Of a stretch of 29,447 bases of DNA, positions 1,309-20,093 are shown one piece after another; the stretch's first letter is position 1, and every line of letters starts with the position of its first letter. Source of the stretch: a virus; the IMG/VR virus record IMGVR_UViG_3300021961_000440, positions 1 through 29,447 of that record; one strand, given 5' to 3'. The position numbers were made by a program, and so were the translations under genes. The notes below the pieces were generated by a model. It saw only the letters and a list, made by a program, of their open reading frames with translations, did no database searches and had not been told where the DNA came from.

Positions 1309-1343
1309 ACATGTATGATACCATAGATTCACAAGAAAGTCAA
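1306..1343 (-). promoter_or_regulatory. early sigma70-type promoter with start-site dyad (class A)
   Basis: TTGACT (1343-1338), a 17-bp spacer and TATCAT (1320-1315) preceded by TGG, an extended -10. The perfect 12-bp palindrome CATACATGTATG (1306-1317) covers the predicted start site and the ATG. The 22-bp dyad lies 30 bp above the -10 box. Confidence 0.85.
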
Positions 1344-1349
1344 GCATTA

Positions 1350-1372
1350 GTGGACACTCCTACAACTGTCAC
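1350..1372 (-). repeat. 22-bp operon-boundary dyad, copy 2
   Basis: This copy reads GTGGACACT-CCTAC-AACTGTCAC. It contains the stop codon of the 67-aa gene (1369-1371) and ends 6 bp upstream of the -35 box of the 1308 promoter. Confidence 0.8.
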
Positions 1373-1572
1373 ACCCACGCTTGCATAAACTCATCAAGGT
1401 GGAAAGTATCGTCTGTTCCAGTCTCAACAATTAACTCATCATAGCTCATCTCTTTTAGACCTTCCAAGTATTCTTCTGGTGTGGGATCATTATCAGGATC
1501 AAAGTCATCATGACAAAGGAACTCATATTCTGCCACAAGTGCATTGATTAGTTGTTGTTTAGTGTAGGTCAC
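1369..1572 (-). CDS. 67-aa acidic protein, unknown
   Basis: Product begins MTYTKQQLINALVAEYEFLC; rich in Asp/Glu, predicted helical, no signal peptide, no known domain. The start is GTG at 1572, overlapping the ATG-TGA end of the 39-aa gene upstream; no ATG is available. Its stop codon lies inside dyad copy 2. It is the last gene of the 2101-1369 operon. Confidence 0.75.
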   Translation of the reverse strand: MTYTKQQLINALVAEYEFLCHDDFDPDNDPTPEEYLEGLKEMSYDELIVETGTDDTFHLDEFMQAWV

Positions 1573-1688
1573 ATGGTATAGGTATGATGGTCAATTTTCT
1601 GCAAATCTTGTTGCATTTGATGATCAGTATTTGTGCTAATGATAATGCCAATGATCAGACACAAAATACAAAAAACAGTTGCTCTCAT
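1569..1688 (-). CDS. 39-aa single-pass membrane or secreted peptide
   Basis: Starts at ATG 1688 and ends at TGA 1569. The sequence opens MRATVFCILCLIIGIIIS, a hydrophobic stretch of about 15 residues that could be a signal anchor, followed by a short polar tail. It overlaps the gene above by ATGA and the GTG-start gene below by 4 bases, so it fits a coupled three-gene operon. Confidence 0.7.
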   Translation of the reverse strand: MRATVFCILCLIIGIIISTNTDHQMQQDLQKIDHHTYTM

Positions 1689-2101
1689 TTGTAGAGATAA
1701 CCTCCTGCCCAATCAGCACGTTGGTACATTTGTTCCCTAGAAGAATCATCAAGCAAGTTATACCTTACACCTTTAGCAGGTGACTGCCAGGATGCAGATT
1801 TGTACACATCACCATTAGTCAGATCCACAAATGCATGGGCACTGCGTTGCTTACTGGGACCAGCAAGATGAATAATCTTAGCATATTTCTTACCCTTGTT
1901 GTAGATATATTCATCAACTCCAATACCTTCACAAAGTTGATCAATTTGTTCTTTGTGATAGTCTACATTCTCACCTTTGGCAATATATTGTCTGTGACGT
2001 TCAATAGCAGTAGACTGAAAGTTAGTGCGAAGAACATCACAAAACTGTTCAATCTTGTCAATGATATTTTCAGTGGTCAAGTTGGTGTTTTGATTTTTCA
2101 T
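1685..2101 (-). CDS. 138-aa protein, unknown
   Basis: First gene of the 2101-1369 operon. Soluble, with an N-terminal helical part (TTENIIDKIEQFCDVL, AIERHRQYIAKGENVDYHKEQID) and a C-terminal part rich in aromatic residues and Gly (ADWAGGYLYK at the end). I recognise it only as a cyanophage-type hypothetical. ATG 2101 sits 7 bases below the -10 box, so the message would be leaderless. The alternative is an in-frame TTG at 2080 (giving a protein beginning M-TTENIIDK). Confidence 0.8.
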   Translation of the reverse strand: MKNQNTNLTTENIIDKIEQFCDVLRTNFQSTAIERHRQYIAKGENVDYHKEQIDQLCEGIGVDEYIYNKGKKYAKIIHLAGPSKQRSAHAFVDLTNGDVYKSASWQSPAKGVRYNLLDDSSREQMYQRADWAGGYLYK

Positions 2102-2136
2102 ACATGTATGATAGCACAAGAATCAGCAAAAGTCAA
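2099..2136 (-). promoter_or_regulatory. early sigma70-type promoter with start-site dyad (class A)
   Basis: TTGACT (2136-2131), 17-bp spacer, extended -10 TGC-TATCAT (2113-2108). The palindrome CATACATGTATG (2099-2110) covers the predicted start site, as at 1306. The 22-bp dyad is 30 bp above the -10. Confidence 0.87.
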
Positions 2137-2142
2137 TAGGTA

Positions 2143-2165
2143 GTGGACAGTTCCACAACTGTCAC
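2143..2165 (-). repeat. 22-bp operon-boundary dyad, copy 3
   Basis: The best dyad of the set: GACAGTT-CCAC-AACTGTC is a perfect inverted repeat with GTG and CAC outer ends. It lies between the stop of the 70-aa gene (2167) and the 2101 promoter. Confidence 0.85.
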
Positions 2166-2166
2166 A

Positions 2167-2379
2167 TCAATACCTTTTTGGTATGTCACAATATGCTACT
2201 GGTTCATAGTCAGATCCATCACTAATTGATGTGCTAATATCTTGAATCTCTTTTGCTTTATACAACAGAAATTCAAGATCTTCAATTAAATTACTTAAAT
2301 TATCATTTGTTTTTCCAAGCAGAGCATCATTAATTCTTTCAAATGCTGCTGATGTTTGTAGAGAATGTGTGTGAATCAT
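2167..2379 (-). CDS. 70-aa helical protein, unknown
   Basis: Product begins MIHTHSLQTSAAFERIND and has a long amphipathic helix region (about residues 12-50) with a short C-terminal tail (CDIPKRY). No known domain. ATGA overlap with the 41-aa gene above. It is the last gene of the 2981-2167 operon. Confidence 0.75.
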   Translation of the reverse strand: MIHTHSLQTSAAFERINDALLGKTNDNLSNLIEDLEFLLYKAKEIQDISTSISDGSDYEPVAYCDIPKRY

Positions 2380-2501
2380 TTTATTTTATACTTCTCCTTC
2401 AATACTTTCAGAACTTGTTTGCGTGATTTGATTCTGCCTTTGCAAGTGCCTTTTGTATTCTTTTGTTTTCCTGAGTTGTGAATCCAATTAGGTGTGTTCA
2501 T
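2376..2501 (-). CDS. 41-aa very basic protein, unknown
   Basis: ATG 2501 to TGA 2376. The product MNTPNWIHNSGKQKNTKGTC... has many Lys/Arg residues (roughly a third of the chain), which suggests nucleic-acid or ribosome binding, but no fold is recognised. It begins 17 bases after the 3' end of tRNA-Arg and overlaps the next gene by ATGA. The reading is supported by the clean coupling, not by homology. Confidence 0.65.
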   Translation of the reverse strand: MNTPNWIHNSGKQKNTKGTCKGRIKSRKQVLKVLKEKYKIK

Positions 2502-2517
2502 TGTTTTACAGTTAGAA

Positions 2518-2590
2518 CAGGCACAGAGGGACTCGAACCCCCACTCAACTGCTTAGAAGGCAGTGGCATTATCCATTATGCTATGTGCCC
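2518..2590 (-). tRNA. tRNA-Arg (UCU), copy 1
   Basis: Acceptor GGGCACA/TGTGCCT (the first pair is G-U), D arm GCAT/ATGC, anticodon arm ACTGC-CTTCTAA-GCAGT (anticodon TCT), T loop TTCGAGT. It reads AGA/AGG, the Arg codons favoured in AT-rich phage genes. The anticodon arm is identical to the second tRNA-Arg(UCU) at 16189-16262. Confidence 0.95.
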
Positions 2591-2620
2591 AAACAAGGGG
2601 CAACATGCCCCTATTTAGCA

Positions 2621-2773
2621 TCAGAACTCAATGGGTTCAAGGGTTGGTTGTGCACCTGCACTTTCAGTGCTAATGCTATCACTATCACCACCAGCAAGAA
2701 CATCAAGAATAGCAAGGATTTCATTGCCATTCTGACCCTTACGCAGAGCACCAATCATGAGATCAAGAGACAT
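2621..2773 (-). CDS. 50-aa protein, unknown (cyanophage small ORF)
   Basis: Product begins MSLDLMIGALRKGQNGNEI. A helical N-terminus (to about residue 27) is followed by a low-complexity Gly/Ser/Asp tail. An in-frame ATG at 2830 would add 19 poorly conserved-looking residues, so the ATG at 2773 is preferred. It lies between the 47-aa gene and tRNA-Arg. Confidence 0.65.
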   Translation of the reverse strand: MSLDLMIGALRKGQNGNEILAILDVLAGGDSDSISTESAGAQPTLEPIEF

Positions 2774-2837
2774 AATAAAGAAAGTGATGAATGAACAAGA
2801 TGTGTAACTTTGGGGCAAACACATTCCCATCAATCAA

Positions 2838-2981
2838 TCAGTCTGTGAGACCTACATTAACTAATTCAAACTCATCTTCATCTGAGAGATTGTAAATGAG
2901 TTGATAATAGTCTTCATAATCAACACCAAGATAAGATGCAAAATCTTCTAGGTCATCATGCAATTTACAAGTGTCAATCAT
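2838..2981 (-). CDS. 47-aa acidic protein with FAxYLGVDYEDY motif (paralogue A)
   Basis: ATG 2981 is preceded by GAGG, a good Shine-Dalgarno. The product carries FASYLGVDYEDY at about residues 14-25. A paralogue with FAEYLGVDYEDY lies at 16364-16504, and the nucleotide similarity over the motif is also obvious. Both copies stand shortly upstream of a tRNA-Arg(UCU). No known domain. First gene of the 2981-2167 operon. Confidence 0.75.
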   Translation of the reverse strand: MIDTCKLHDDLEDFASYLGVDYEDYYQLIYNLSDEDEFELVNVGLTD

Positions 2982-3005
2982 TGTTCCTCAACTGTTGATG
3001 TAATA

Positions 3006-3014
3006 ATCATAGCA
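3006..3014 (-). promoter_or_regulatory. extended -10 promoter for the 2981 operon
   Basis: TGC-TATGAT (3014-3006), with no convincing -35 hexamer (TACCAA at the 17-bp position). The 22-bp dyad at 3042 is 31 bp above the -10 box, the usual spacing in this window. The gene start is 25 bases downstream. Confidence 0.65.
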
Positions 3015-3150
3015 CACAAACTTGAGTTTTGGTAGTTGTGTGTGCCACTTCTACATCTGACACAGTGGTATAGTTTTGTGTTTGTGCCTTGAGTGTAATG
3101 AATGGATCACCCACAAGTAGAATTGTGCACAAAAAGATTCCCTTCCACAT
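3007..3150 (-). CDS. 47-aa secreted-type microprotein that runs through a dyad and promoter
   Basis: ATG 3150 to TGA 3007, starting 4 bases after the stop of the 61-aa gene. The N-terminus (MWKGIFLCTILLVGDPFITL) looks like a signal peptide or anchor; the tail is polar. Codons 31-38 (SDVEVAH) are written by the 22-bp dyad, and the stop codon lies inside the -10 box of the next promoter. The frame could be partly accidental, but the hydrophobic start and tight spacing support translation. Confidence 0.5.
   Translation of the reverse strand: MWKGIFLCTILLVGDPFITLKAQTQNYTTVSDVEVAHTTTKTQVCVL
3042..3063 (-). repeat. 22-bp operon-boundary dyad, copy 4
   Basis: The copy reads GTGCCACTT-CTAC-ATCTGACAC. 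It lies inside the end of the 47-aa reading frame and 31 bp upstream of the -10 box of the 2981 promoter. Confidence 0.75.
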
Positions 3151-3154
3151 AGTA

Positions 3155-3340
3155 TTATACATCATAAATCTTATTCATGTTAAGATGTTCCCTATACCAA
3201 ACTTCATCCTCTTTGGTATTAAAAGAAAGACCCAACAAAAAACTATAATGGTCTGCCCAAATCATGCAACTACTTTCAAACCAATCTTTCATCAATTCAG
3301 TGTTGCAATCCTGGAGAGTTTTCATCTTTATGTTTGTCAT
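3155..3340 (-). CDS. 61-aa protein, unknown
   Basis: Product begins MTNIKMKTLQDCNTELM and contains aromatic-rich segments (WFESSCMIWADHYSFLLGL; VWYREHL). No known domain. ATG 3340 lies 7 bases below the -10 box (leaderless). The in-frame ATG at 3325 would leave a 15-nt leader and is equally possible. First gene of a short operon with the 47-aa microprotein. Confidence 0.7.
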   Translation of the reverse strand: MTNIKMKTLQDCNTELMKDWFESSCMIWADHYSFLLGLSFNTKEDEVWYREHLNMNKIYDV

Positions 3341-3352
3341 GTAGACATGATA
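3338..3352 (-). promoter_or_regulatory. extended -10 promoter with start-site dyad (class A variant)
   Basis: TGC-TATCAT with the hexamer at 3352-3347. The start site is covered by CATGTAGACATG (3338-3349), a 12-bp dyad similar in place and form to CATACATGTATG. No -35 consensus. The 22-bp dyad is 31 bp above the -10. Confidence 0.7.
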
Positions 3353-3382
3353 GCATGAAAAGAGGCACTGTGCTCATTTACA

Positions 3383-3404
3383 GTGCCAGTTCCACAAGTG
3401 TCAC
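3383..3404 (-). repeat. 22-bp operon-boundary dyad, copy 5
   Basis: The copy reads GTGCCAGTT-CCAC-AAGTGTCAC and contains the stop codon (3401-3403) of the 80-aa gene upstream. Confidence 0.82.
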
Positions 3405-3643
3405 TCTGGCATCAGACTCTGCAGAGTTTCTTCATCATAAAGATCTAAGATTTCATCTTTTACTTCTTCTTCACTCCACATTTCAATGTTTTGCATAATA
3501 GAATCAAATGCAAAAGTGACTAGAGTATCCATATCCATCCCATCAATAATCATGTGGGTATAGTTTTCTTTGAGGGAAACAAGTTGAGATTCAGTCAATG
3601 GAATAGATTCAGATTTCAGGATTTCAGAGTAAAGATCAGACAT
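3401..3643 (-). CDS. 80-aa acidic helical protein, unknown
   Basis: Product begins MSDLYSEILKSESIPLTESQ. Strongly acidic with predicted helices, including WSEEEVKDEILDLYDEETL near the C-terminus. No known domain. ATG 3643 overlaps the end of the coiled-coil gene by 8 bases; an in-frame TTG one codon upstream is less likely. The stop lies inside dyad copy 5, so it ends the 3973-3401 operon. Confidence 0.78.
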   Translation of the reverse strand: MSDLYSEILKSESIPLTESQLVSLKENYTHMIIDGMDMDTLVTFAFDSIMQNIEMWSEEEVKDEILDLYDEETLQSLMPE

Positions 3644-3851
3644 CAATTTCTGCTAATTTCTTTTGCTTACGAAGATCAGAGATAATCATTTGAAGTTCTA
3701 GAACATCTTGCCTACATTCTTCTAGATCTTCACAGAGCATTTCATATTGATACTCTGATTTACACTTTCTGATTTGCTTTGTGATCTTATCATATTTCTT
3801 TTTAGCATCCTTTAGTTGCTTTTCGTACTCTTGAATAGAATTGTAGTTCAT
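3636..3851 (-). CDS. 71-aa coiled-coil protein, unknown
   Basis: The chain is almost entirely charged heptad-like helix (Lys/Glu/Gln-rich; YEKQLKDAKKKYDKITKQI and later ELQMIISDLRKQKKL), so a coiled-coil oligomer is likely. ATGA overlap with the 41-aa membrane protein gene above. Confidence 0.78.
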   Translation of the reverse strand: MNYNSIQEYEKQLKDAKKKYDKITKQIRKCKSEYQYEMLCEDLEECRQDVLELQMIISDLRKQKKLAEIDV

Positions 3852-3973
3852 TTGTTGAAAGAAGAATTGTAATAGCGACGAAAGGCAGTAACAATAATAA
3901 TGGCAGTGCTAATGACACCAACCAAACCAAGGAAGGTAACAGCATCACCTGAAAAAGTATAAGTGTTAGGCAT
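3848..3973 (-). CDS. 41-aa single-pass membrane protein
   Basis: ATG 3973 to TGA 3848. The product begins MPNTYTFSGDAVTFLGLVG and has one transmembrane helix (about residues 11-31, ending IIIVTAFRR) and a basic C-terminal tail. It is the size of small photosystem-associated peptides, but I cannot match it to any, so function is unknown. First gene of the 3973-3401 operon; the start is 22 bases below the -10 box. Confidence 0.75.
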   Translation of the reverse strand: MPNTYTFSGDAVTFLGLVGVISTAIIIVTAFRRYYNSSFNK

Positions 3974-3983
3974 TTGTTTTTTG

Positions 3984-4023
3984 ATTACCTTGTAATAGTA
4001 GCAGAGTGAGAGAAAAAAATCAA
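3984..4023 (-). promoter_or_regulatory. early sigma70-type promoter with start-site dyad (class B)
   Basis: TTGATT (4023-4018), 17-bp spacer, extended -10 TGC-TACTAT (4000-3995). ATTAC-CTT-GTAAT at about 3984-3996 is the class B dyad at the start site. The 22-bp dyad is 32 bp above the -10. Confidence 0.83.
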
Positions 4024-4031
4024 GTGGTTGT

Positions 4032-4053
4032 GTGCCACTTCATCAACTGTCCT
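4032..4053 (-). repeat. 22-bp operon-boundary dyad, copy 6
   Basis: The copy reads GTGCCACTT-CATC-AACTGTCCT and reaches into the stop codon of the RlpA-like gene (4052-4054). Confidence 0.8.
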
Positions 4054-4390
4054 ATCCAACTACTCTCCAGCATACAACAGCGTTTCCCTTACGTGGAGAA
4101 GCAATGTGAGCAAAAGCAGCATAAGAAAGATCCAAGTCAGCATGAGAATATGGACCACGATCATTTACTTTTACAATTACTTGTTTGAGGTTGTCTTGAT
4201 TTGTGACCCTAATTTTGCTTCCCATAGGCAGGTAAGGATGAGCAGCAGTCCAACGATAAGCATCAAATCTTTCGCCACTTGCAGTAGTTTGACCATGGAA
4301 ACCATCACCTACACCATAGTAAGTTGCCATGCCACAAGTTAGACCAGCAATCAATCCAATCATATCAATCCCAAGAAACATTTTGAACAA
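4052..4390 (-). CDS. RlpA-like lytic transglycosylase (double-psi beta-barrel)
   Basis: A 112-aa protein with a short hydrophobic N-terminus (to about residue 20) and then a complete RlpA-type double-psi barrel: GMATYYG, FHGQTTASGE, TAAHPYLPMGS, VTN, and VNDRGPY. The residues matching the known RlpA active site are present with correct spacing: E40, D43 and H51, plus D77 of the NDRG motif. RlpA proteins cleave naked peptidoglycan glycans in the cell envelope. The neighbouring gene encodes a signal-peptide protein, so the pair probably works in the periplasm. ATGs at 4381 and 4363 are alternative starts; the last avoids overlap with the upstream gene but shortens the signal. Confidence 0.88.
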   Translation of the reverse strand: MFKMFLGIDMIGLIAGLTCGMATYYGVGDGFHGQTTASGERFDAYRWTAAHPYLPMGSKIRVTNQDNLKQVIVKVNDRGPYSHADLDLSYAAFAHIASPRKGNAVVCWRVVG

Positions 4391-4757
4391 GGAACCCAGG
4401 CATTACATAAGTCCAAGCACCTAAGTCATTGTGTCCACCAGTTTTATATTCCCACTTGTACTCAAACTTATTGTGACTATCCCAAGTCATATATCCCTGC
4501 TCTTTATCAAATCTGCCTTTGATTGTGAGACTATGTTTGTTAGAAAAGATGTTTCTTGTGCGTAATGCTCCACCCTTTTCACGGGTTTCAATCACCACAC
4601 AGGTATCAGGATAGGTTTGAATACCTGACTCCAACATACAGGGAGTTTCATATCTAAAAGGACGATAGAAAACATTTTGTTCTGGAGTTGCAAATGCAGG
4701 ACTTGCTAACAATAAAGAAGCAAGAGCAAACAATTTAGATTTATTCAAAATCATCAT
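4365..4757 (-). CDS. secreted protein of unknown function
   Basis: 130 aa with a clear signal peptide (MMILNKSKLFALASLLLASPAFA, cleavage after AFA). The mature part is about 107 residues, beta-rich, with two Cys close together (PCMLES and DTCVV) that could form a disulphide. No family recognised. It overlaps the 32-aa membrane peptide gene by 17 bases and the RlpA-like gene by up to 26, suggesting joint action in the envelope. ATG 4757 and 4754 are both usable. Confidence 0.8.
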   Translation of the reverse strand: MMILNKSKLFALASLLLASPAFATPEQNVFYRPFRYETPCMLESGIQTYPDTCVVIETREKGGALRTRNIFSNKHSLTIKGRFDKEQGYMTWDSHNKFEYKWEYKTGGHNDLGAWTYVMPGFLVQNVSWD

Positions 4758-4839
4758 CTCTTGGATTAACAGAACAGAAAGTATAGTTGATTGCTAATGC
4801 AATGGCAAGTGCAGTGAAATAACCTATAAGAATGGTCAT
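4741..4839 (-). CDS. 32-aa single-pass membrane peptide
   Basis: ATG 4839 to TAA 4741. MTILIGYFTALAIALAINYT makes one transmembrane helix, followed by an acidic tail. It overlaps the gene above by ATGA and the secreted-protein gene below by 17 bases. Very short, but coupling and hydrophobicity make it credible. Confidence 0.62.
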   Translation of the reverse strand: MTILIGYFTALAIALAINYTFCSVNPRDDDFE

Positions 4840-5012
4840 GGAGTAGGATCAAAATATACTATTTCTTCCAACATAGGAAGTATTTCATATTGAATATCAT
4901 CAAGATGTTGACCCATAATAGTCATATCCATCTCATGAAGTTTATTCTCACGCTCTACAACTTGTTTTAGAAGTTTGTAGGCATTTTCAATGTCACTGTA
5001 AGAATATATCAC
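4836..5012 (-). CDS. 58-aa acidic helical protein, unknown
   Basis: GTG start at 5012 overlapping the upstream stop (GTGA); a second GTG lies one codon earlier at 5015. The product (after the start: IYSYSDIENAYKLLKQVV...) is a single long helix region with many Glu/Asp, a likely coiled coil. It ends in an ATGA overlap with the 32-aa gene. Confidence 0.65.
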   Translation of the reverse strand: MIYSYSDIENAYKLLKQVVERENKLHEMDMTIMGQHLDDIQYEILPMLEEIVYFDPTP

Positions 5013-5293
5013 CACTCACCTCTTTGAATCAGAATCTTGCGAATCTCATTATATGCAAACTGTTGAGTCTTACGATCTTGAGCATGATCAAGAACATAAT
5101 ACATTTTCTTGAGATACTCATCCTGAGTAGTAATATGAATCACTTTTGCTTTAGTCATTCCAAGACCTTGAATAGGAGAACCTGCTTTAACTTTACTCTT
5201 TCCAAAGTTTCCAGTCACATTACCTTGAGTACGAAGTTTGGGTTTGATTTTGGAAAGATTGGAGGTTGCGAAGTTCATCTGTGTTTTATTCAT
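5009..5293 (-). CDS. 94-aa basic protein, unknown
   Basis: First gene of the 5293-4052 operon. The N-terminal half is basic and Gly/Lys-rich; the C-terminal half is helical (YLKKMYYVLDHAQDRKTQQF, NEIRKILIQRGEW). No known domain. ATG 5293 is 7 bases below the -10 box; an in-frame ATG at 5278 gives a 15-nt leader. Confidence 0.73.
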   Translation of the reverse strand: MNKTQMNFATSNLSKIKPKLRTQGNVTGNFGKSKVKAGSPIQGLGMTKAKVIHITTQDEYLKKMYYVLDHAQDRKTQQFAYNEIRKILIQRGEW

Positions 5294-5305
5294 ACAAGTA
5301 TGATA
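5291..5305 (-). promoter_or_regulatory. extended -10 promoter with start-site dyad (class A)
   Basis: TGC-TATCAT with the hexamer at 5305-5300 and the imperfect dyad CATACAAGTATG (5291-5302) over the start site. There is no -35 match at 17 bp. The 22-bp dyad is 31 bp above the -10. Confidence 0.72.
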
Positions 5306-5330
5306 GCACACCAGAGGGGGCAATGGGGAT

Positions 5331-5519
5331 TTACTGTGCCACTTCCCCAACTGTCCTCTCTATGTGCTCCACTGTGCTGTGCAGTTTGTTATACAAACCA
5401 CTCAGGGATACTTTACCACTACTCTCCATGATCTTCTGCTCTTTCTTTGACAACAACTGTAGTGCAGTCTTCAGTGCATCCAACTCATCAAGATTCAGTC
5501 TCACAAAATCTTCAGTCAT
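5331..5519 (-). CDS. 62-aa helical protein, unknown
   Basis: Product begins MTEDFVRLNLDELDALKTAL; all-helical and charged, no known domain. Its last codons (RTVGEVAQ) are encoded by dyad copy 7, so the regulatory element doubles as coding sequence. ATGA overlap with the gene above; last gene of the 6556-5331 operon. Confidence 0.72.
   Translation of the reverse strand: MTEDFVRLNLDELDALKTALQLLSKKEQKIMESSGKVSLSGLYNKLHSTVEHIERTVGEVAQ
5336..5357 (-). repeat. 22-bp operon-boundary dyad, copy 7
   Basis: The copy reads GTGCCACTT-CCCC-AACTGTCCT. It is wholly inside the 3' end of the 62-aa gene and 31 bp above the -10 of the 5293 promoter. Confidence 0.8.
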
Positions 5520-5752
5520 TTCTTTTCAGGTTGAGGTTTGGGTTGAACTTTGGTAGGATCAGCATAAGGAACCCTGCCATCCTTTTGATACATCAGAATG
5601 TCATACTTGAACTTACATTCATGTGGACGCTGATTACAGAGCATGAGTGTATCATTTACTGCTCTTTGTGCTCCACCAGATGATCCAATAGCACCACCAA
5701 TCATAAGAGATAGTGCCACAAATGCAATCATTTTATAATTGTTAATGATCAT
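5516..5752 (-). CDS. 78-aa exported or membrane-anchored protein
   Basis: An N-terminal hydrophobic stretch (KMIAFVALSLMIGGAIG) acts as signal or anchor, followed by a polar segment with two Cys (LMLCNQRPHECKFKY) and a Pro/Lys-rich tail. No family recognised. ATG 5752 overlaps the upstream stop; ATG 5731 would start directly at the hydrophobic segment. Confidence 0.73.
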   Translation of the reverse strand: MIINNYKMIAFVALSLMIGGAIGSSGGAQRAVNDTLMLCNQRPHECKFKYDILMYQKDGRVPYADPTKVQPKPQPEKK

Positions 5753-5955
5753 TTAATAACCTTCCAATTAGGGTCATTTACTTTATCAATCCAGAAGAAG
5801 TATTGTTTATTGATAGATGCTAAAAACATCTGATTATCTGTCTCTTGTTCTACATGACATCCATGCAGTTTATCCATCAGATTAGCAAACCTATTCTTTG
5901 CCTTGTTAGAAATAGGTTGAACATTTACCATTTTACGTTTCACTTTAGTTTGCAT
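5749..5955 (-). CDS. 68-aa basic protein, unknown
   Basis: Product begins MQTKVKRKMVNVQPISNKAK: a basic N-terminus, then an alternating hydrophobic/charged region (MFLASINKQYFFWIDKV) suggesting a small beta sheet. No known domain. TGATG overlap with the gene above and ATGA overlap with the gene below. Confidence 0.75.
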   Translation of the reverse strand: MQTKVKRKMVNVQPISNKAKNRFANLMDKLHGCHVEQETDNQMFLASINKQYFFWIDKVNDPNWKVIK

Positions 5956-6395: not shown

Positions 6396-6412
6396 GTGTT
6401 GTTAATAATAAA

Positions 6413-6556
6413 TCAGTCTTCAATAAGAATCCATTCTTCCATGTCACTCTCAGTCATGGATTCCCAATTATCTTCAAAAAGATCAAACATTGCTTCATTA
6501 GGAATGATACAATCAAACTCATCAATTTGAATGTCATCAAGAAATGCAGTGCTCAT
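6413..6556 (-). CDS. 47-aa acidic protein, unknown
   Basis: First gene of the 6556-5331 operon. The product begins MSTAFLDDIQIDEFDCIIPN and is extremely acidic. ATG 6556 is chosen over ATG 6565 because it lies 24 bases below the -10 box, as in the other class B promoters (22-25 bases). No known domain. Confidence 0.68.
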   Translation of the reverse strand: MSTAFLDDIQIDEFDCIIPNEAMFDLFEDNWESMTESDMEEWILIED

Positions 6557-6567
6557 CTGTCTCATTT

Positions 6568-6585
6568 GATTACCTAGTAATCATA
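6568..6585 (-). promoter_or_regulatory. extended -10 promoter with perfect start-site dyad (class B)
   Basis: TGC-TATGAT with the hexamer at 6585-6580. GATTAC-CTA-GTAATC (6568-6582) is a perfect inverted repeat at the start site. A TTGACT lies only 6 bp above the -10 and cannot serve as a -35. The 22-bp dyad is 31 bp above the -10. Confidence 0.72.
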
Positions 6586-6615
6586 GCATGGAGTCAAGAG
6601 TTTTGGTGGTTTATT

Positions 6616-6637
6616 GTGCCAGTTGTACATGTGGCAC
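6616..6637 (-). repeat. 22-bp operon-boundary dyad, copy 8
   Basis: GTGCCA-N10-TGGCAC with a GTAC centre. The outer arms are perfectly complementary, the clearest sign that the element is a dyad. It follows the stop of the 42-aa gene (6645). Confidence 0.85.
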
Positions 6638-6644
6638 ATCAATA

Positions 6645-6804: not shown

Positions 6805-6875
6805 TGGAGAATACCAGAGTCGAACTGGTGATTGATGCTTGCAAAGCACCTGTTTTACCACTAAACTAATTCCCC
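6805..6875 (-). tRNA. tRNA-Ala (UGC)
   Basis: Acceptor GGGGAAT/ATTCTCC contains the G3-U70 pair that identifies alanine tRNAs. The anticodon arm is GGTGC-TTTGCAA-GCATC (anticodon TGC) and the T arm ACCAG-TTCGACT-CTGGT. Last tRNA of the cluster. Confidence 0.96.
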
Positions 6876-6879
6876 TAGG

Positions 6880-6961
6880 TGCACAAGAAAGGACTTGAAC
6901 CTTCATGGATTGCTCCACTGGAACCTAAACCCAGCGCGTATACCAATTCCGCCACTTGTGC
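6880..6961 (-). tRNA. tRNA-Leu (UAG)
   Basis: Class II tRNA with a perfect acceptor GCACAAG/CTTGTGC, anticodon loop TTTAGGT (anticodon TAG), a long variable arm and T loop TTCAAGT. Only 4 bases separate it from tRNA-Ala. Confidence 0.96.
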
Positions 6962-6964
6962 ATA

Positions 6965-7037
6965 CTCCCCCACCTGGATTCGAACCAGGAACCAAGTGAT
7001 TAACAGTCACCTACTCTGCCTGTTGAGCTATAGGGGA
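6965..7037 (-). tRNA. tRNA-Asn (GUU)
   Basis: Acceptor TCCCCTA/TGGGGGA, anticodon arm GGTGA-CTGTTAA-TCACT (anticodon GTT), T arm CCTGG-TTCGAAT-CCAGG. Only 3 bases from tRNA-Leu, so the three tRNAs must be processed from a common precursor. Confidence 0.96.
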
Positions 7038-7042
7038 ATGAT

Positions 7043-7198
7043 CTACTTTTTATCTAACAAATACTCAACTGTATTTGCTATGTCATTCATTGCATTTCTA
7101 AGATCTGGTTGCTCTCCTGCTTCCATATCCATATTATCATTAACCAATGTCCAACGCCATTGATTCATATCTTTATTATGCCAGAGGTTAATCACCAT
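7043..7198 (-). CDS. 51-aa protein, unknown
   Basis: ATG 7198 to TAG 7043. Begins MVINLWHNKDMNQWRWTL; Trp/Asn-rich N-terminus and an acidic helical C-terminus. No known domain. It overlaps the end of the 52-aa gene by 11 bases and stops 6 bases before tRNA-Asn. Confidence 0.65.
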   Translation of the reverse strand: MVINLWHNKDMNQWRWTLVNDNMDMEAGEQPDLRNAMNDIANTVEYLLDKK

Positions 7199-7346
7199 GT
7201 TTGTACTGCTCTAACTCTATCCAATTAAGAAGTGTTTGATAAGCATTGATTGCTGCTTGATTGCAATTATCTTTCTTTAATCCTTCAATGTAGTATTCAA
7301 GTGCTTCAATCACCATTTGACGATCAGTTTGAGAAATCAAAGACAT
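7188..7346 (-). CDS. 52-aa helical protein, unknown
   Basis: Product begins MSLISQTDRQMVIEALEYYI and forms a two-helix hairpin pattern (QMVIEALEYYIEGLKK; AAINAYQTLLNWIELEQ). A longer frame upstream runs into tRNA-Pro and is rejected. It sits between tRNA-Pro and the 51-aa gene. Confidence 0.72.
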   Translation of the reverse strand: MSLISQTDRQMVIEALEYYIEGLKKDNCNQAAINAYQTLLNWIELEQYKHGD

Positions 7347-7383
7347 GATAATAACTTGATAATTTGGAGTATTTATTCTCCAA

Positions 7384-7458
7384 TCCAAGATGTAGGATTT
7401 GAACCTACGACCCCTGCTTCCCAAAAGCAGTGCTCTATCCAAACTGAGCTAATCCTGG
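7384..7458 (-). tRNA. tRNA-Pro (UGG)
   Basis: Acceptor CCAGGAT/ATCTTGG, D arm GCTC/GAGC, anticodon arm CTGCT-TTTGGGA-AGCAG (anticodon TGG), T arm GTAGG-TTCAAAT-CCTAC. Confidence 0.95.
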
Positions 7459-7461
7459 TGG

Positions 7462-7533
7462 TGGGAAATCACAGATTCGAACTGTGGACCATCTCCGTGT
7501 AAAGGAGGCACTCTACCACTGAGTTAATCTCCC
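7462..7533 (-). tRNA. tRNA-Val (UAC)
   Basis: Acceptor GGGAGAT/ATTTCCC, D arm ACTC/GAGT, anticodon loop TTTACAC (anticodon TAC), T arm CACAG-TTCGAAT-CTGTG. Three bases separate it from tRNA-Pro. Confidence 0.95.
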
Positions 7534-7537
7534 AAGA

Positions 7538-7601
7538 GGGTGACAATGCCACCCTGTTACACTGTAAAGTATGAATCAGTACAGTGCCTTTTGCTATGGC
7601 A
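7538..7601 (-). ncRNA. three-hairpin tRNA-like spacer between tRNA-Ser and tRNA-Val
   Basis: In transcript order: a D-arm-like hairpin TGCC/GGCA (7601-7585), an 8-bp hairpin GCACTGTA/TACAGTGT with a 13-nt loop (7587-7559), and a hairpin GGGTG/CACCC with a 7-nt loop (7554-7538). The order and sizes resemble D, anticodon and T arms, but the T loop lacks TTCRA and no acceptor stem closes cleanly. It could be a decayed tRNA or a processing element. Confidence 0.35.
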
Positions 7602-7632
7602 TCCTGGTTTATCTTTCCAGTGCAAGTAGCAA

Positions 7633-7718
7633 AGGAAGGTTAGGGATTCGAACCCTAGGAGGCTACTAACCTCAGTAGTTTTCAAGACTACCACCATCAA
7701 CCACTCGGTCAACCTTCC
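7633..7718 (-). tRNA. tRNA-Ser (UGA)
   Basis: Class II tRNA. The acceptor GGAAGGT/ACCTTCC is perfect, the anticodon loop is CTTGAAA (anticodon TGA), the long variable arm is GAGG-TTAGTAG-CCTC, and the T arm is TAGGG-TTCGAAT-CCCTA. First tRNA of the cluster, 30 bases below the stop of the 76-aa gene. The discriminator appears to be U rather than the usual G. Confidence 0.95.
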
Positions 7719-7991: not shown

Positions 7992-8032
7992 GATTACTTT
8001 GTAATGATAGCAGGTCTGGGGAGGAAAGTCAA
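7992..8032 (-). promoter_or_regulatory. early sigma70-type promoter driving the tRNA cluster operon (class B)
   Basis: TTGACT (8032-8027), 17-bp spacer, extended -10 TGC-TATCAT (8009-8004). ATTAC-TTT-GTAAT covers the start site (about 7993-8005). The 22-bp dyad is 31 bp above the -10. Confidence 0.87.
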
Positions 8033-8039: not shown

Positions 8040-8061
8040 GTGCCACTTAGATAACTGTCAT
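8040..8061 (-). repeat. 22-bp operon-boundary dyad, copy 9
   Basis: The copy reads GTGCCACTT-AGAT-AACTGTCAT. It encodes the last residues (MTVI) and stop codon of the 44-aa gene. Confidence 0.78.
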
Positions 8062-9770: not shown

Positions 9771-9798
9771 ATTATAGCAGAAAACACACCACCCACAA
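9771..9798 (-). promoter_or_regulatory. early sigma70-type promoter for the 9748 operon
   Basis: TTGTGG (9798-9793), 16-bp spacer, extended -10 TGC-TATAAT (9776-9771), the only consensus -10 among the early-type promoters besides those at 11967 and 17813. The 22-bp dyad is 31 bp above the -10. Confidence 0.82.
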
Positions 9799-9806: not shown

Positions 9807-9828
9807 GTGCCAGTTCCTCAAGTGTCCT
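9807..9828 (-). repeat. 22-bp operon-boundary dyad, copy 10
   Basis: The copy reads GTGCCAGTT-CCTC-AAGTGTCCT and contains the stop codon (9818-9820) of the 108-aa gene. Confidence 0.8.
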
Positions 9829-11966: not shown

Positions 11967-11995
11967 ATTATACACCATATCCTTCTAATTTGGAA
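11967..11995 (-). promoter_or_regulatory. early sigma70-type promoter for the 11946 operon
   Basis: TTCCAA (11995-11990), 17-bp spacer, consensus -10 TATAAT (11972-11967) preceded by GTG rather than TGn. No clear start-site dyad. The 22-bp dyad is 31 bp above the -10. Confidence 0.78.
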
Positions 11996-12002: not shown

Positions 12003-12024
12003 GTGCCAGTTCCAAAACTGTCTT
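12003..12024 (-). repeat. 22-bp operon-boundary dyad, copy 11
   Basis: The copy reads GTGCCAGTT-CCAA-AACTGTCTT and touches the stop codon of the tail-assembly chaperone gene (12023-12025). It separates the tail cassette from the early operon below. Confidence 0.82.
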
Positions 12025-14110: not shown

Positions 14111-14123
14111 TTATTTTTTTTAT

Positions 14124-14690: not shown

Positions 14691-14717
14691 CTATTTCCCC
14701 AACTCATAATCTATCTA

Positions 14718-15752: not shown

Positions 15753-15754
15753 AA

Positions 15755-16015
15755 TCAATCAAGGTAGTAATCACTATTATCCACTATTTCCCAACTTAAG
15801 TCAAGTTCATCTAGAAACTGAACTAATTCATGCTCATTGTCAGGAAGAACCTCATCATCTTCAAGAGTAAAACATGCCTCACAAAGAGCAGGTCCATATT
15901 CAGCAGGTTCATCATATGTCTGTGCATATACTTGAACCATGTCTTCAACTACAGCAGAAACATAGATGCTGCCATCTTCATGTTGATTGACAGTTTCAAT
16001 GCTCAGAATACTCAT
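15755..16015 (-). CDS. 86-aa acidic protein, unknown
   Basis: Begins MSILSIETVNQHEDGSIYVS. Strongly acidic, with an N-terminal strand pair and CEACFTLEDDEVLPDNEHEL. A conserved-looking cyanophage hypothetical; no catalytic motif. It overlaps the 53-aa gene above by ATGA and ends just before rmlB. Confidence 0.77.
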   Translation of the reverse strand: MSILSIETVNQHEDGSIYVSAVVEDMVQVYAQTYDEPAEYGPALCEACFTLEDDEVLPDNEHELVQFLDELDLSWEIVDNSDYYLD

Positions 16016-16173
16016 TTCTTTTTCATCTCCTTTTGAACAAACTTTTTAGCAGTTTCCATTGTATTATGAACTGAAATCTGTTGTCCCATATGTATGATCA
16101 TAAATTTTTTGTAGAATGGGATAATTGCCCATTCTCCAGTCTTACTAACCCAACCTAACTCATCTTGTTCCAT
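16012..16173 (-). CDS. 53-aa protein, unknown
   Basis: Begins MEQDELGWVSKTGEWAIIPF, a compact beta-type N-terminus (GEWAIIPFYKKFMIIHMG) with a basic helical tail (METAKKFVQKEMKKK). A longer frame runs backwards into tRNA-Arg and is rejected. The start is 16 bases after the tRNA 3' end. Confidence 0.7.
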   Translation of the reverse strand: MEQDELGWVSKTGEWAIIPFYKKFMIIHMGQQISVHNTMETAKKFVQKEMKKK

Positions 16174-16188
16174 AGTCAAGTGCAACAA

Positions 16189-16262
16189 CGTCTCAGGCAG
16201 GACTCGAACCTGCGACCAACTGCTTAGAAGGCAGTGGCTCTTTCCATCTGAGCTACTGAGAC
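16189..16262 (-). tRNA. tRNA-Arg (UCU), copy 2
   Basis: Perfect acceptor GTCTCAG/CTGAGAC, D arm GCTC/GAGC, anticodon arm ACTGC-CTTCTAA-GCAGT (anticodon TCT, same arm as the copy at 2518-2590), T arm GCAGG-TTCGAGT-CCTGC. The acceptor and T stems differ from copy 1, so it is not a recent identical duplicate. Confidence 0.96.
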
Positions 16263-16266
16263 AAGT

Positions 16267-16336
16267 AGAGAGTGGTTGGAATCGAACCAACTACTGTATG
16301 TGTTATCCACGTGCCTTTCCAGTTGGCATCACTCTC
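16267..16336 (-). tRNA. degenerate tRNA (anticodon unclear)
   Basis: The acceptor GAGAGTG/CACTCTC and T arm GTTGG-TTCGATT-CCAAC are perfect and the D arm (GCC/GGC with A14, GG, A21) is canonical. The anticodon arm is broken: CGTGG against ATACA pairs at only three of five positions, the variable loop is 3 nt, and the whole is 70 nt. The loop read this way would give AAC, which is doubtful. Either a decaying tRNA or one with an altered anticodon arm. Four bases from tRNA-Arg copy 2. Confidence 0.7.
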
Positions 16337-16363
16337 TGTGGGGCAACCTTCCACCCCTACATA

Positions 16364-16504
16364 TTACCTTGAATAATCATCAAAGTCAACATCAGGATGC
16401 AGAAACTCTAAGTAATCTTCGTAATCAACACCAAGATATTCTGCAAACTGTTTTAACTCTTCAGTATGTTCCTTGGCAATAAGTTCCTCTATGTTCTGGA
16501 CCAT
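16364..16504 (-). CDS. 46-aa acidic protein with FAxYLGVDYEDY motif (paralogue B)
   Basis: ATG 16504 with a strong Shine-Dalgarno (GAGGAGG). The product has FAEYLGVDYEDYLEFL, clearly related to paralogue A at 2838-2981. Both lie just upstream of a tRNA-Arg(UCU). No known domain. Confidence 0.75.
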   Translation of the reverse strand: MVQNIEELIAKEHTEELKQFAEYLGVDYEDYLEFLHPDVDFDDYSR

Positions 16505-16513
16505 ACTACCTCC

Positions 16514-16645
16514 TCAATAACCATATCTAGAGATCATTTGATCCATTCTATCCTCTCTGTATTCATCTTCTACTTCTTCAGTCTTATTATCTTCTAGCTC
16601 TTCGTAGATGCTGTCAGCATCTTTATCTAGAAAAAGGGAAGTCAT
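16514..16645 (-). CDS. 43-aa very acidic protein, unknown
   Basis: Begins MTSLFLDKDADSIYEELEDN. A longer frame upstream overlaps the cobS C-terminus and is a shadow. The product is mostly Glu/Asp with a basic DRMDQMISRYGY end. Its stop lies in the Shine-Dalgarno region of the next gene. Confidence 0.65.
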   Translation of the reverse strand: MTSLFLDKDADSIYEELEDNKTEEVEDEYREDRMDQMISRYGY

Positions 16646-16691
16646 AGGAGATTTTACTTGCAAGGGATGTTTTATATAGTAGGGAAAGGGA

Positions 16692-17789
16692 TTACTCCCC
16701 TTCCTCCTGCTGGAATTCAACATCAATCTTGTCATACAACTCCACAAAAGTGGACTTGGTTTCATCATCAAAGCGATTCAGGCAAACTTTAATTGCCTTA
16801 TCTTTCTTACCAAAGATAGAATATGCTTTGATGATGTGTACAAGACGACGAGTAGAGATCACTTCATCAATACCACCATCATTGAAAGTCTTGCGAATAA
16901 TCTCAGACCAAGTACAAAGATGCTTGATAAAATCAGTGTGCTCTCCAACCATAGGAATGTTAAGAGATTCTGCAACTTTAGTCAAGATCTTATTCTCAGT
17001 GGCAAGAGTTGGATATTCTTGCTCAAAGGTGATAGGAAACCTCTCAAGGAATGCCTCATTGAGCACATTAGTGCCAATAAAGCGACCATCATCAGATCCT
17101 TTACCTTTAGTGTTAGCAGTGGCAAACACATTGAATCCTGCCTTAGGAACAATATGCTTACCAATCTTCTTAAGGAAGACACCTTTACCCTCTAGAATGG
17201 ATTGGAGGCACATGATTTTATTGGATGCAAGGTCAATCTCATCAAGAAGAAGGATTGCACCACGATCCATTGCTTCAACCACAGGACCATTGTGCCATAC
17301 AGTCTCACCATTAACTAGACGAAAACCACCAATAAGGTCATCTTCATCAGTCTCAATAGTGATGTTGACACGAATCAATTCACGACCAAGTTGTGCACAT
17401 GCCTGTTCTACACCAAAGGTTTTACCATTGCCAGACAAACCAGTGATGAAAGCAGGGTAAAACAACCCAGAAGAAACAACTTTCTTAATATCACTAAAGT
17501 TACCAAAGCTGACGAAGGTAGCATCTTTTTTAGGAATAAGATTTTGCACAACTGCATTGAGAGTCTGAACAGTATCAGTTCCCTCAGCAGCAGGAGAATT
17601 GTAAGTTTGTTCCAGTTCTTTCACGGTTGCCTCAAGATTCCATTTACCACGACCAGTTTTATATGCTTGTAGATACTTAGATGCAGTAGCATAAGAAGTA
17701 TTCAGTTGATCTGCCACGCACTTAACAGCAGTAGCATCAATCTCAGTACCAAACTGTTCTTTTAGTAGTGTGATAAGTTGTTCTTGCAT
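16692..17789 (-). CDS. cobS: CobS-type AAA+ ATPase (MoxR class)
   Basis: 365 aa. A helical N-terminal part (to about 60, QLNTSYATASKYLQAY) precedes the AAA+ core: Walker A GLSGNGKT (117-124), Walker B LLLDEID (180-186), sensor-1 ATAN (N226), an arginine near the trans-acting finger position (R250 in FLERFP), and a C-terminal helical domain. Known as CobS in T4-like cyanophages, where it is nearly universal. The partner zincin/VWA gene lies directly upstream, so it fits a MoxR-VWA chaperone or remodelling pair; a true cobalt-chelatase role needs a CobN partner that is not seen here. First gene of its operon, class B promoter at 17801-17840. Confidence 0.92.
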   Translation of the reverse strand: MQEQLITLLKEQFGTEIDATAVKCVADQLNTSYATASKYLQAYKTGRGKWNLEATVKELEQTYNSPAAEGTDTVQTLNAVVQNLIPKKDATFVSFGNFSDIKKVVSSGLFYPAFITGLSGNGKTFGVEQACAQLGRELIRVNITIETDEDDLIGGFRLVNGETVWHNGPVVEAMDRGAILLLDEIDLASNKIMCLQSILEGKGVFLKKIGKHIVPKAGFNVFATANTKGKGSDDGRFIGTNVLNEAFLERFPITFEQEYPTLATENKILTKVAESLNIPMVGEHTDFIKHLCTWSEIIRKTFNDGGIDEVISTRRLVHIIKAYSIFGKKDKAIKVCLNRFDDETKSTFVELYDKIDVEFQQEEGE

Positions 17790-17800
17790 GGTCTTGGGTT

Positions 17801-17840
17801 GATTACAAAGTAATTATAGCATGGGTGGGAGCAGAGTCAG
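17801..17840 (-). promoter_or_regulatory. early sigma70-type promoter for the cobS operon (class B)
   Basis: CTGACT (17840-17835), 16-bp spacer, extended -10 TGC-TATAAT (17818-17813). ATTAC-AAA-GTAAT covers the start site. The 22-bp dyad is 30 bp above the -10. Confidence 0.82.
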
Positions 17841-17847
17841 GGGCAGA

Positions 17848-17870
17848 GTGGACTCTTCCCCAACTGGCAC
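17848..17870 (-). repeat. 22-bp operon-boundary dyad, copy 12
   Basis: The copy reads GTGGACTCTT-CCCC-AACTGGCAC. It ends one base before the stop codon of the VWA gene (17872) and 7 bp above the -35 of cobS. Confidence 0.78.
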
Positions 17871-17871
17871 A

Positions 17872-20010
17872 TCATGCAATCATTTCAATAAAAGAAGACA
17901 AAAGTTTCTTGTTTGTTTTCTTCTTACTCAGCATTTTAGAAAATGCAGTTTTGATTTGTGCTTTAGTTGCACCCTCTTCAACATCAAACTTCTCATCCTG
18001 AGACAAAGAAGTGGTAGGAATGACATTGAATTGATCATATCCAGTGTTAGTAAAGGTAATGAATTGATTTTTCTTATAGACGCTCTTTACTTTATCATAG
18101 TCACCATACTCCCTACCATACCAATCATAGCAGGTCTTGAAATCCCTACCAGGAATAACTCTGAAGTTGACAAAATTAACAGTAGGAAACTTATCTTTCA
18201 GAGTAGAAAGAAGAACCTTAGAATACTGAGGGAAGTTTCCATAGGTATAAGCAGGATAGATTCTGCCATTCTTCCTGTTGCGAATGGTAGTCTTGAATGC
18301 TTTAGTAATGCCAACATATTCTTCATCCCTGTTATTCTTTTTAACTTTGGTGGTGGCATTAACATAACCTTCACCATCAGTCAGGAAAACAACATTCACT
18401 TTCTGAAGTTTGTTACTCTTCTGGAAGTGGGGGATCAATTCATGCAGAGCAAGCATAGTATCACCCAGAGGAGAACCAGAGAGATCAAGATGCCTAGGAG
18501 CAGCACCTTGCCTCTTCTGGAAAGCATAACAACATGCCCAGATGTTCTTCATCTGTTGATCCAATTCACGAGAATTAGTCTTACTAGTGAAGAAATTAAG
18601 AAGTCTAAAAGAATTCTCAGGAGCAACTACACCACTGACTTTTTTATAGATTGGAGGATGATTTGGTTGGATGTCAACATAAGAATTGCAATCTACAGTA
18701 AAAGCATACACCTCAAAGGGGATATTTACTTTCTTGCAGAACCAAATCAGATTGTACAGTTGCTTGCAAGTGTCAAGAATCCAATCACACATGGATCCAG
18801 ACCAATCAAGAATAAAGATCAGACCATGATTCTTTCCATCAGGGATAACAGAAACTTTCTTGAAAAGATCTTCATTGAACTTGTAAGTATGCAGTTTGCT
18901 GGTATCAAGAACACCAGTTCTTGCAGTGCTAGAACGAGCATATTGATCTGCTGATTTCTTACACTCAAACTCTTTCACAAGATAGGAAACTTCCTTCTCA
19001 GAAGATTTCTTGTACTGAACATACTCAGAAACAACTTCCTTGTACCAACTACCAATCCAAGAGTCATTATTAGAATAATACTCTTGTGTTTTACTGTGAA
19101 TATACTCATTGGGAATAATCACATTTTCAAGAATAACCTGAGGAAGCTCAACATAAGTAGTCTCTTCCCCAAACTTATTGGTCAGTTCCTCTGCTTTCTC
19201 ATCAAAAGATTGGGCAGTCTTAGACTCAAACTCACCATGCTCATCACTAGGTTGACGACCACCACCATTGGGCATTTCTTGTTCCATGGTAATAGGATTG
19301 TCTCCCTGAGATTCTTGCTCTGAAGTAGAAGATTCTTGAGATTCTTGATCAAGATCCATAGAATCCTCAGTGTTTTGTTCAGAATTCTGAGGAAAATCTA
19401 CTTCTTCCCCACTTTGTCCTTGATTCTGAGCAATTTCAGGCATCTCTGTGAGTTGTTTTTTCTTATGATTCAAGAACTGAACAATTTCACGAGCAATATC
19501 AAGAACCTCTTTGAAGGTTTCCAGTTGACTAATGCGAGTCACAAACTCATCCTCTTGATCAGAGAATGCAATGTTATGAAATGCACCAATCTTGAAGTAC
19601 ATGTTGATTCTATCAATGAATGAGAGATCATCAAGATTCTCATCTTTTACAGAAAAGAAATCATCATTATTCAGTTCATTATAACCATTATAGAAAGTTT
19701 TGGAAAGACCAGGATATTTCTTCTTCATCAGACGCTCTACACGAACATCCTCAATCACATTGATGAAATCCTTAGGAACATCAGAGTATTCTTTAGTCCA
19801 ATCAATGTTATCAGTAAAGAGTGCATGTCCCACCTCATGACCCACCAGAAGGTCATAAACAGTGGCAGATGCCCTATCCCACATAGGAAGAGTTAGAACC
19901 CTCCTATCAACATCAAAGGATGCAGTAGAGACCTTTTTATGCTCTACAATGAGGTTCTCTGTTGCCAGACACTTAGCAAGAGATCCTTTAACTTCTAGGT
20001 TGACTGACAT
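17872..20010 (-). CDS. zincin plus VWA protein, CobT-like partner of CobS
   Basis: 712 aa. N-terminal metallopeptidase-like domain with H58-E59-V-G-H62 and a downstream acidic VIEDVRVE segment (about 85-92) that may supply a third ligand; an acidic Gln/Glu/Ser linker (about 200-280); and a C-terminal von Willebrand A domain with MIDAS DWSGSM (D402) and a TDG loop (D545). MoxR/CobS-type ATPases commonly team with VWA proteins. It is oriented as the gene just before cobS in the direction of transcription but has its own promoter. ATG 20010 is 25 bases below the -10; an open frame above it runs through the terminator and lacks an ATG. Confidence 0.88.
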   Translation of the reverse strand: MSVNLEVKGSLAKCLATENLIVEHKKVSTASFDVDRRVLTLPMWDRASATVYDLLVGHEVGHALFTDNIDWTKEYSDVPKDFINVIEDVRVERLMKKKYPGLSKTFYNGYNELNNDDFFSVKDENLDDLSFIDRINMYFKIGAFHNIAFSDQEDEFVTRISQLETFKEVLDIAREIVQFLNHKKKQLTEMPEIAQNQGQSGEEVDFPQNSEQNTEDSMDLDQESQESSTSEQESQGDNPITMEQEMPNGGGRQPSDEHGEFESKTAQSFDEKAEELTNKFGEETTYVELPQVILENVIIPNEYIHSKTQEYYSNNDSWIGSWYKEVVSEYVQYKKSSEKEVSYLVKEFECKKSADQYARSSTARTGVLDTSKLHTYKFNEDLFKKVSVIPDGKNHGLIFILDWSGSMCDWILDTCKQLYNLIWFCKKVNIPFEVYAFTVDCNSYVDIQPNHPPIYKKVSGVVAPENSFRLLNFFTSKTNSRELDQQMKNIWACCYAFQKRQGAAPRHLDLSGSPLGDTMLALHELIPHFQKSNKLQKVNVVFLTDGEGYVNATTKVKKNNRDEEYVGITKAFKTTIRNRKNGRIYPAYTYGNFPQYSKVLLSTLKDKFPTVNFVNFRVIPGRDFKTCYDWYGREYGDYDKVKSVYKKNQFITFTNTGYDQFNVIPTTSLSQDEKFDVEEGATKAQIKTAFSKMLSKKKTNKKLLSSFIEMIA

Positions 20011-20034
20011 GTGTGATTTCTTTACTGTCCTTAC

Positions 20035-20040
20035 AGGATA
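20035..20040 (-). promoter_or_regulatory. extended -10 promoter for the VWA gene
   Basis: TGC-TATCCT with a weak -35 (GTGGTG at 17 bp). TCCT-TAC-AGGA is a short dyad at the start site. A degenerate 22-bp dyad lies 32 bp above. The upstream terminator overlaps the spacer, so this promoter restarts transcription after termination. Confidence 0.65.
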
Positions 20041-20044
20041 GCAC

Positions 20045-20070
20045 AAAAAAGGGGGGTCACCACTCCCCCC
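20045..20070 (-). terminator. rho-independent terminator upstream of the VWA gene
   Basis: In transcript sense GGGGGG-AGTGGTGA-CCCCCC-TTTTTT: a perfect six-G/C stem followed at once by a U run. It ends either the late transcripts arriving from 20239 or the candidate short RNA that begins at 20142. Confidence 0.85.
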
Positions 20071-20071
20071 T

Positions 20072-20093
20072 AGTACACTAATTAAACTGTCCA
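20072..20093 (-). repeat. 22-bp operon-boundary dyad, degenerate copy 13
   Basis: Only CACT and AACTGTC match the consensus, but the position (32 bp above the TATCCT box) is that of all other copies. It was found by the spacing rule and then checked for sequence. Confidence 0.4.

Follow-up and report, generated by a model that had tools for sequence, protein, structure and literature searches.

This study concerns IMG/VR record IMGVR_UViG_3300021961_000440, a cyanophage sequence of 29,447 bases that is analysed here as a whole and called the window. In it, a 22-bp imperfect dyad, GTGNCASTT-N4-AASTGNCAC, is present 13 times, each time oriented with the minus-strand genes. We propose, with a probability of roughly 0.7, that the early promoters of such phages mimic the PlmA-dependent yfr2 promoter of the host, with the dyad acting as operator for an activator of the host, most likely PlmA. 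The dyad is held at a fixed distance from the -10 box, is widespread among cyanophages, tracks with no phage gene and recurs with this geometry at the promoter of host Yfr2 and at related ones.

The dyad and its spacing in cyanophages

The window belongs to a T4-like cyanophage whose best matches are Synechococcus and Prochlorococcus myoviruses, and the minus strand carries most of its genes. The dyad pattern, with up to three mismatches allowed, generated 21 strand-matches in the window against 0.11 expected from shuffles. When the window was scored with a matrix derived from other phages, 11 strong dyad sites with a promoter stood out. The -10 boxes behind them are mostly extended, TGN-TATNAT. 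In the corrected register, the distance from the dyad to the first base of the -10 box is exactly 30 bp at 10/11 strong sites and 31 bp at one (4032). The scan found no further strong dyad between 20.2 and 29.4 kb, where large structural-type open reading frames (ORFs) lie.

A first-pass annotation of the window had listed 13 dyad copies, and all 13 places were checked. Every copy exists and reads towards minus-strand genes. Most of the coordinates were right, but three were one base off, so that 1350 becomes 1351, 2143 becomes 2144 and 17848 becomes 17849. Partly because these sites were out of register, the spacing had been given as 30–32 bp; the fixed spacing holds, and the range narrows to the values above. 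Four promoters (3006, 3347, 5300 and 6580) had been described as keeping the spacing without a -35 box. This was borne out, with no -35 box and a gap of 30 bp at each. The sites are as follows.

15..36, minus strand: dyad GTGCCAGTTGTAGAAGTGGTCG; matrix score 16.3; at the window edge, promoter beyond it
1351..1372, minus strand: dyad GTGACAGTTGTAGGAGTGTCCA; -10 TATCAT 1315-1320, gap 30 bp; TTGACT -35 present
2144..2165, minus strand: dyad GTGACAGTTGTGGAACTGTCCA; -10 TATCAT 2108-2113, gap 30 bp; TTGACT present
3042..3063, minus strand: dyad GTGTCAGATGTAGAAGTGGCAC; extended -10 TGCTATGAT 3006-3011, gap 30 bp; no -35
3383..3404, minus strand: dyad GTGACACTTGTGGAACTGGCAC, top score 31.1; extended -10 TGCTATCAT 3347-3352, gap 30 bp; no -35
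4032..4053, minus strand: dyad AGGACAGTTGATGAAGTGGCAC; extended -10 TGCTACTAT 3995-4000, gap 31 bp; TTGATT present
5336..5357, minus strand: dyad AGGACAGTTGGGGAAGTGGCAC; extended -10 TGCTATCAT 5300-5305, gap 30 bp; no -35
6616..6637, minus strand: dyad GTGCCACATGTACAACTGGCAC; extended -10 TGCTATGAT 6580-6585, gap 30 bp; no -35
8040..8061, minus strand: dyad ATGACAGTTATCTAAGTGGCAC; extended -10 TGCTATCAT 8004-8009, gap 30 bp; TTGACT present
9807..9828, minus strand: dyad AGGACACTTGAGGAACTGGCAC; extended -10 TGCTATAAT 9771-9776, gap 30 bp
12003..12024, minus strand: dyad AAGACAGTTTTGGAACTGGCAC; -10 TATAAT 11967-11972, gap 30 bp
17849..17870, minus strand: dyad GTGCCAGTTGGGGAAGAGTCCA; extended -10 TGCTATAAT 17813-17818, gap 30 bp
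20072..20093, minus strand: weak possible dyad TGGACAGTTTAATTAGTGTACT, sequence read directly; -10 TATCCT 20035-20040, gap 31 bp

The dyad at 8040..8061 points towards a minus-strand tRNA cluster (6805-7718), and that at 17849..17870 sits just upstream of a cobS-like ORF (16692-17789). The copy at 20072, at the start of a peptidase-like ORF (17872-20139), is a possible dyad site. It has its -10 box at 31 bp and, in the gap, a terminator-like hairpin (GGGGGG-loop-CCCCCCTTTTTT), but it is weak by the matrix and falls under the reporting threshold.

IMG/VR was scanned for the dyad followed by TATAAT at a set distance, with the variable arm positions left open. At exactly 30 bp this generated at least 120 stretches, compared with two at 20 bp and two at 40 bp. 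A scan for the exact dyad placed a -10 box at 28–33 bp in 104/132 unique sites, with a mode of 30, and at 48–53 bp in 7. Among the matches listed from the 30-bp and exact-dyad scans, 214/221 loci carry the element, and 211 of these 214 encode relatives of known cyanophage proteins.

The element is present in Syn9, P-SSM2, S-PM2, S-CRM01, P-RSM4, P-HM2 and P-TIM40. In whole genomes of named phages, dyads with a -10 box at 29–32 bp were counted and compared with counts at five control distances, which gave 23 versus 1–5 in P-SSM2, 24 versus 1–5 in S-CRM01, 22 versus 0–7 in S-PM2 and 17 versus 2–4 in P-RSM4. The Syn9 count also exceeded the five controls, and the excess in P-HM2 was less strong. 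The dyad pattern alone, again with up to three mismatches, was found in 10/10 further cyanophages, with 0–2 control hits per strand in each. The fixed distance between dyad and -10 box is not due to chance. The first-pass annotation had named conserved as against random distances in related phages as a check on its proposal; the check was run, the spacing is conserved across cyanophages and the proposal is not refuted.

Shared divergent promoters and an anti-palindromic position in its arms mark the dyad as an operator in DNA, not a hairpin in RNA. At 66592 of the P-SSM2 record, one dyad serves the divergent promoters TATTGT and TATAAT, each at 30 bp, and reverse-strand -10 boxes in IMG/VR peak at 29–31 bp from the dyad. 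Arm position 7 (columns 7 and 16 of the 22-mer) was nearly always C or G among 823 unique sites. The two arms had the same base there (G..G or C..C) at 520/750 sites, compared with 366 expected and a maximum of 420 in 20,000 permutations, a figure that is not a strict probability since related sequences share ancestry. Position 7 would be a mismatch in a hairpin, so that selection seems to have acted on the element at the DNA level and not on an RNA stem. An RNA hairpin or terminator was rejected on this position together with the absence of T-runs. Each operator tends to pair two unlike half-sites, CAGTT and CACTT, or CAGTT and CACTA in P-TIM40.

The spacers between dyad and -10 box differ in sequence and keep their length. 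Many contain a GC-rich hairpin plus a T-run, apparently the upstream operon's terminator fitted in between the operator and the -10 box. A simple TTGA[CT]/TTGC test for a -35 box matched only 24/104 IMG/VR promoters. Several P-TIM40 promoters, for example in record positions 50296-54330, have a further conserved spacer sequence, CACTACC.

The same module in host genomes

The strict dyad was found in 48/386 cyanobacterial genomes, usually as a single copy, and a control pattern was found in 2. At 15/17 examined host dyads a -10 box lies at 31–32 bp, ahead of a non-coding RNA, in agreement with the gap of 30–31 bp in the window. Many host sites have no protein gene directly after them. Rfam identified 6/17 of the host RNAs as Cyano-1 (RF01701); both sites that lack a strict -10 match belong to this group of six. 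We take Cyano-1 to be the Yfr2 family. Yfr2 is almost universal in cyanobacteria (PMC6778093), which agrees with this assignment.

A set of 28 RF01701 loci from small-genome (2.3–2.9 Mb), presumably picocyanobacterial, hosts was examined with a matrix derived from phages alone. The best site lay at one fixed place, 35–39 bp before the RNA model start, in 25/28 loci, and most had a phage-like gap to the -10 box. None of 300 shuffled matrices reached 25/28 (mean 5.4, maximum 14).

The host regulator of these promoters has been described. According to PMC6778093, PMM1637, a GntR regulator common to all cyanobacteria, binds those yfr2 promoters of marine picocyanobacteria that contain the element CGRE1 (Lambrecht et al. 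2018, cited there), and it is described as mediating the induction of Yfr2 by nitrogen starvation and high light. The same text places CGRE1 in MED4 only before yfr2, whereas the phages have several to 48 dyad copies before other operons. PlmA, a homologue of PMM1637, binds the PII-PipX complex (PMC6243067). A GntR protein was encoded in 10/10 hosts tested, and one hit, when translated, proved to be 347 aa long and to have a GntR domain at its N terminus. From PMC6778093 we infer that these host hits are PlmA.

In 257 Gb of prokaryote genomes, the full element with TATAAT was limited to five contigs, and a single metagenome-assembled genome (MAG) bin accounts for two of them. Element-bearing contigs L174 and L177 occur in a TMED113 Flavobacteriales MAG. 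L174, the one compared, matches a P-TIM40-like cyanophage, and these contigs are probably misbinned phage DNA. A host regulon with many sites was rejected on the small number of contigs and on this match.

At 11 loci in large-genome cyanobacteria, this dyad promoter is followed by a conserved sequence that resembles a transcript, is untranslated and starts with TGCAAGGAGTGATACC. No Rfam family matched it at the gathering score, and it may represent a small RNA similar to Yfr2. A perfect palindrome, GTGGCAATTCATGAATTGCCAC, is repeated in four cyanobacterial genomes and looks like a different repeat picked up by the loose pattern.

Phage gene clusters that carry the dyads

The Syn9 dyads lie within a small-gene cluster at about 44.8–53 kb, and those of P-TIM40 within one gene cluster at 45–55 kb. 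A novel early regulatory element, conserved in T4-like cyanophages, was reportedly described in these two phages by Doron et al. in 2016 (ISME J). The dyad is probably that element: it occurs in the same two phages, within a single gene cluster, and is spread widely among T4-like cyanophages and in metagenomes.

Timing is seen most cleanly in Mic1, a siphophage unrelated to T4-like phages, to which a Microcystis contig in the scan led. Mic1 has 48 dyads, all at 56.8–72.1 kb from gp50 to gp73, and the reversed-genome control had none. In the published RNA-seq study, gp49 and gp69–gp73 form the earliest cluster, or first wave, and gp52, gp59 and gp63 are among 17 further early genes (PMC11237433). 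The dyad stretch holds most of these named early genes. The -10 boxes of Mic1 (CATAAT), read by eye, are located at 31 bp; those accompanied by a TTGACA -35 box are at 40 bp, about one helical turn further. At 65.9–72.1 kb, around gp69–gp73, about 40 dyads form a dense array, often in steps of 56–62 bp, and this array could also titrate the host regulator.

Proposed mechanism and rival explanations

PlmA, taken as the GntR-family regulator present throughout cyanobacteria (PMM1637 in Prochlorococcus MED4), would bind the 22-bp site as a dimer. With the -10 hexamer taken as -12 to -7, the centre of the site would lie near -53.5. Bound PlmA would help the host RNA polymerase to use the extended -10 box, so that a -35 box would often not be needed. 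The host uses this module, a dyad, about 30–32 bp and a -10 box, for small RNA genes such as Yfr2. The phages would have put copies of it before their early operons, which could then be transcribed as soon as the phage has entered, by the proteins of the host alone. We infer that the phage copies are targets of PlmA and that its effect on them is activation, not repression. On this reading, the early phage promoters are either copies of the host yfr2 promoter or have converged on it.

CRP acts from -41.5 at class II promoters and from -61.5 at class I promoters. The dyad centre lies between the two, where activation would presumably go through contact with the polymerase. The first-pass annotation had suggested a regulator site at about -43 to -64 that aids polymerase recruitment, which fits all that was found, namely the conserved spacing, the frequent absence of a -35 box and the same geometry in hosts. 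If the PlmA reading is true, a host regulator common to all cyanobacteria plus a portable operator would explain the broad host range as well as the lack of a tracking phage gene, infection would possibly depend on the nitrogen and light state of the host, and an unexplained repeat would become a directly testable protein-DNA pair. We consider it an even bet that unrelated cyanophages, the T4-like myoviruses of picocyanobacteria and the Microcystis siphophage, independently built early regulons from the PlmA-dependent yfr2 module. Early infection would then be wired to a host regulator tied to nitrogen and redox through PII-PipX and thioredoxin, and the phage copies could draw PlmA off yfr2.

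Several points weigh against the PlmA reading. The identity of CGRE1 with the dyad is proposed from position and a matrix match. With the phage matrix, 3/28 yfr2 loci had no site at the expected place, and picocyanobacterial yfr2 sites are degenerate in their promoter-proximal half. A simple symmetric dimer would not account for arm position 7 being anti-palindromic, or for a heterotypic or polar site. Spacing and pattern scans found no dyad promoters above chance in S-TIM5 and Ma-LMM01, and at most one candidate in S-SM2 (NC_015279, Kyanoviridae), a phage of the same virus family; the module is therefore not essential for infecting cyanobacteria. The early genes of S-SM2 must fire by another route or via a diverged site.

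We think it unlikely that the dyad is bound by an activator encoded by the phage or carried in its virion, with the likeness to host yfr2 secondary, for example because a phage protein imitates that of the host. Such an activator would suit the high density of the element in phages and its rarity in hosts, the possibility that a regulator is injected on infection, and the lack of the T4 proteins MotA and AsiA in cyanophages (PMC5780444). When Syn9 was compared with seven cyanophages, however, no Syn9 gene shared by at least 5/6 dyad-bearing phages was missing from the dyad-poor S-SM2. The unassigned conserved Syn9 genes that were scanned belong to T4 core, structural or domain-of-unknown-function families. 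A phage-encoded regulator was rejected because no gene tracks with the dyad in this comparison. No GntR-family gene was found in 20 phages searched, and Pfam scans of 30 window proteins detected no transcription factor. Mic1, although unrelated to T4, uses the same site, and hosts use the same geometry. The regulator pMarR of P-SSP7 was also rejected; its binding site is downstream of the transcription start, and a dyad like this one has not been described for it. Less probable again is a repressor operator that keeps early promoters shut or closes them later. GntR proteins are often repressors and some dyads accompany a full -35 box, but the whole site is located upstream of -35, promoters that have lost the -35 box still keep the spacing, and Yfr2 induction is described as PMM1637-mediated.

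Very improbable is a mobile stem-loop of the PeSL type, acting as an RNA terminator or processing hairpin or as a DNA recombination point, with the distance to the promoter a by-product of copying. The first-pass annotation had pointed to PeSL cassettes of T4-type phages as a parallel. The parallel holds only in that the dyads stand at operon junctions of a variable gene cluster, where many spacers fuse a terminator-like hairpin with a promoter, and this separate hairpin could serve as a terminator at some sites. It does not extend to the dyad itself, which is distinct from that terminator and is not a recombination repeat either. The dyad has no T-run after it, its arms avoid pairing at position 7, the spacers vary in sequence but not in length, one dyad can serve divergent promoters, and the dyad is found at host small RNA promoters. 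PeSL is not known to include a further 22-bp operator at a set distance.

The dyad also differs from the T4 middle promoter, in which the MotA box is near -30; the dyad centre is near -53.5, and cyanophages are without motA and asiA. The late promoters of P2 Ogr and P4 delta are similar in having a dyad centred near -55, a weak or absent -35 box and dependence on an activator. They differ in that the activator is a phage zinc-finger protein, the site is TGT-N12-ACA and the genes are late. The P2 and P4 promoters and those described here work alike and are not related.

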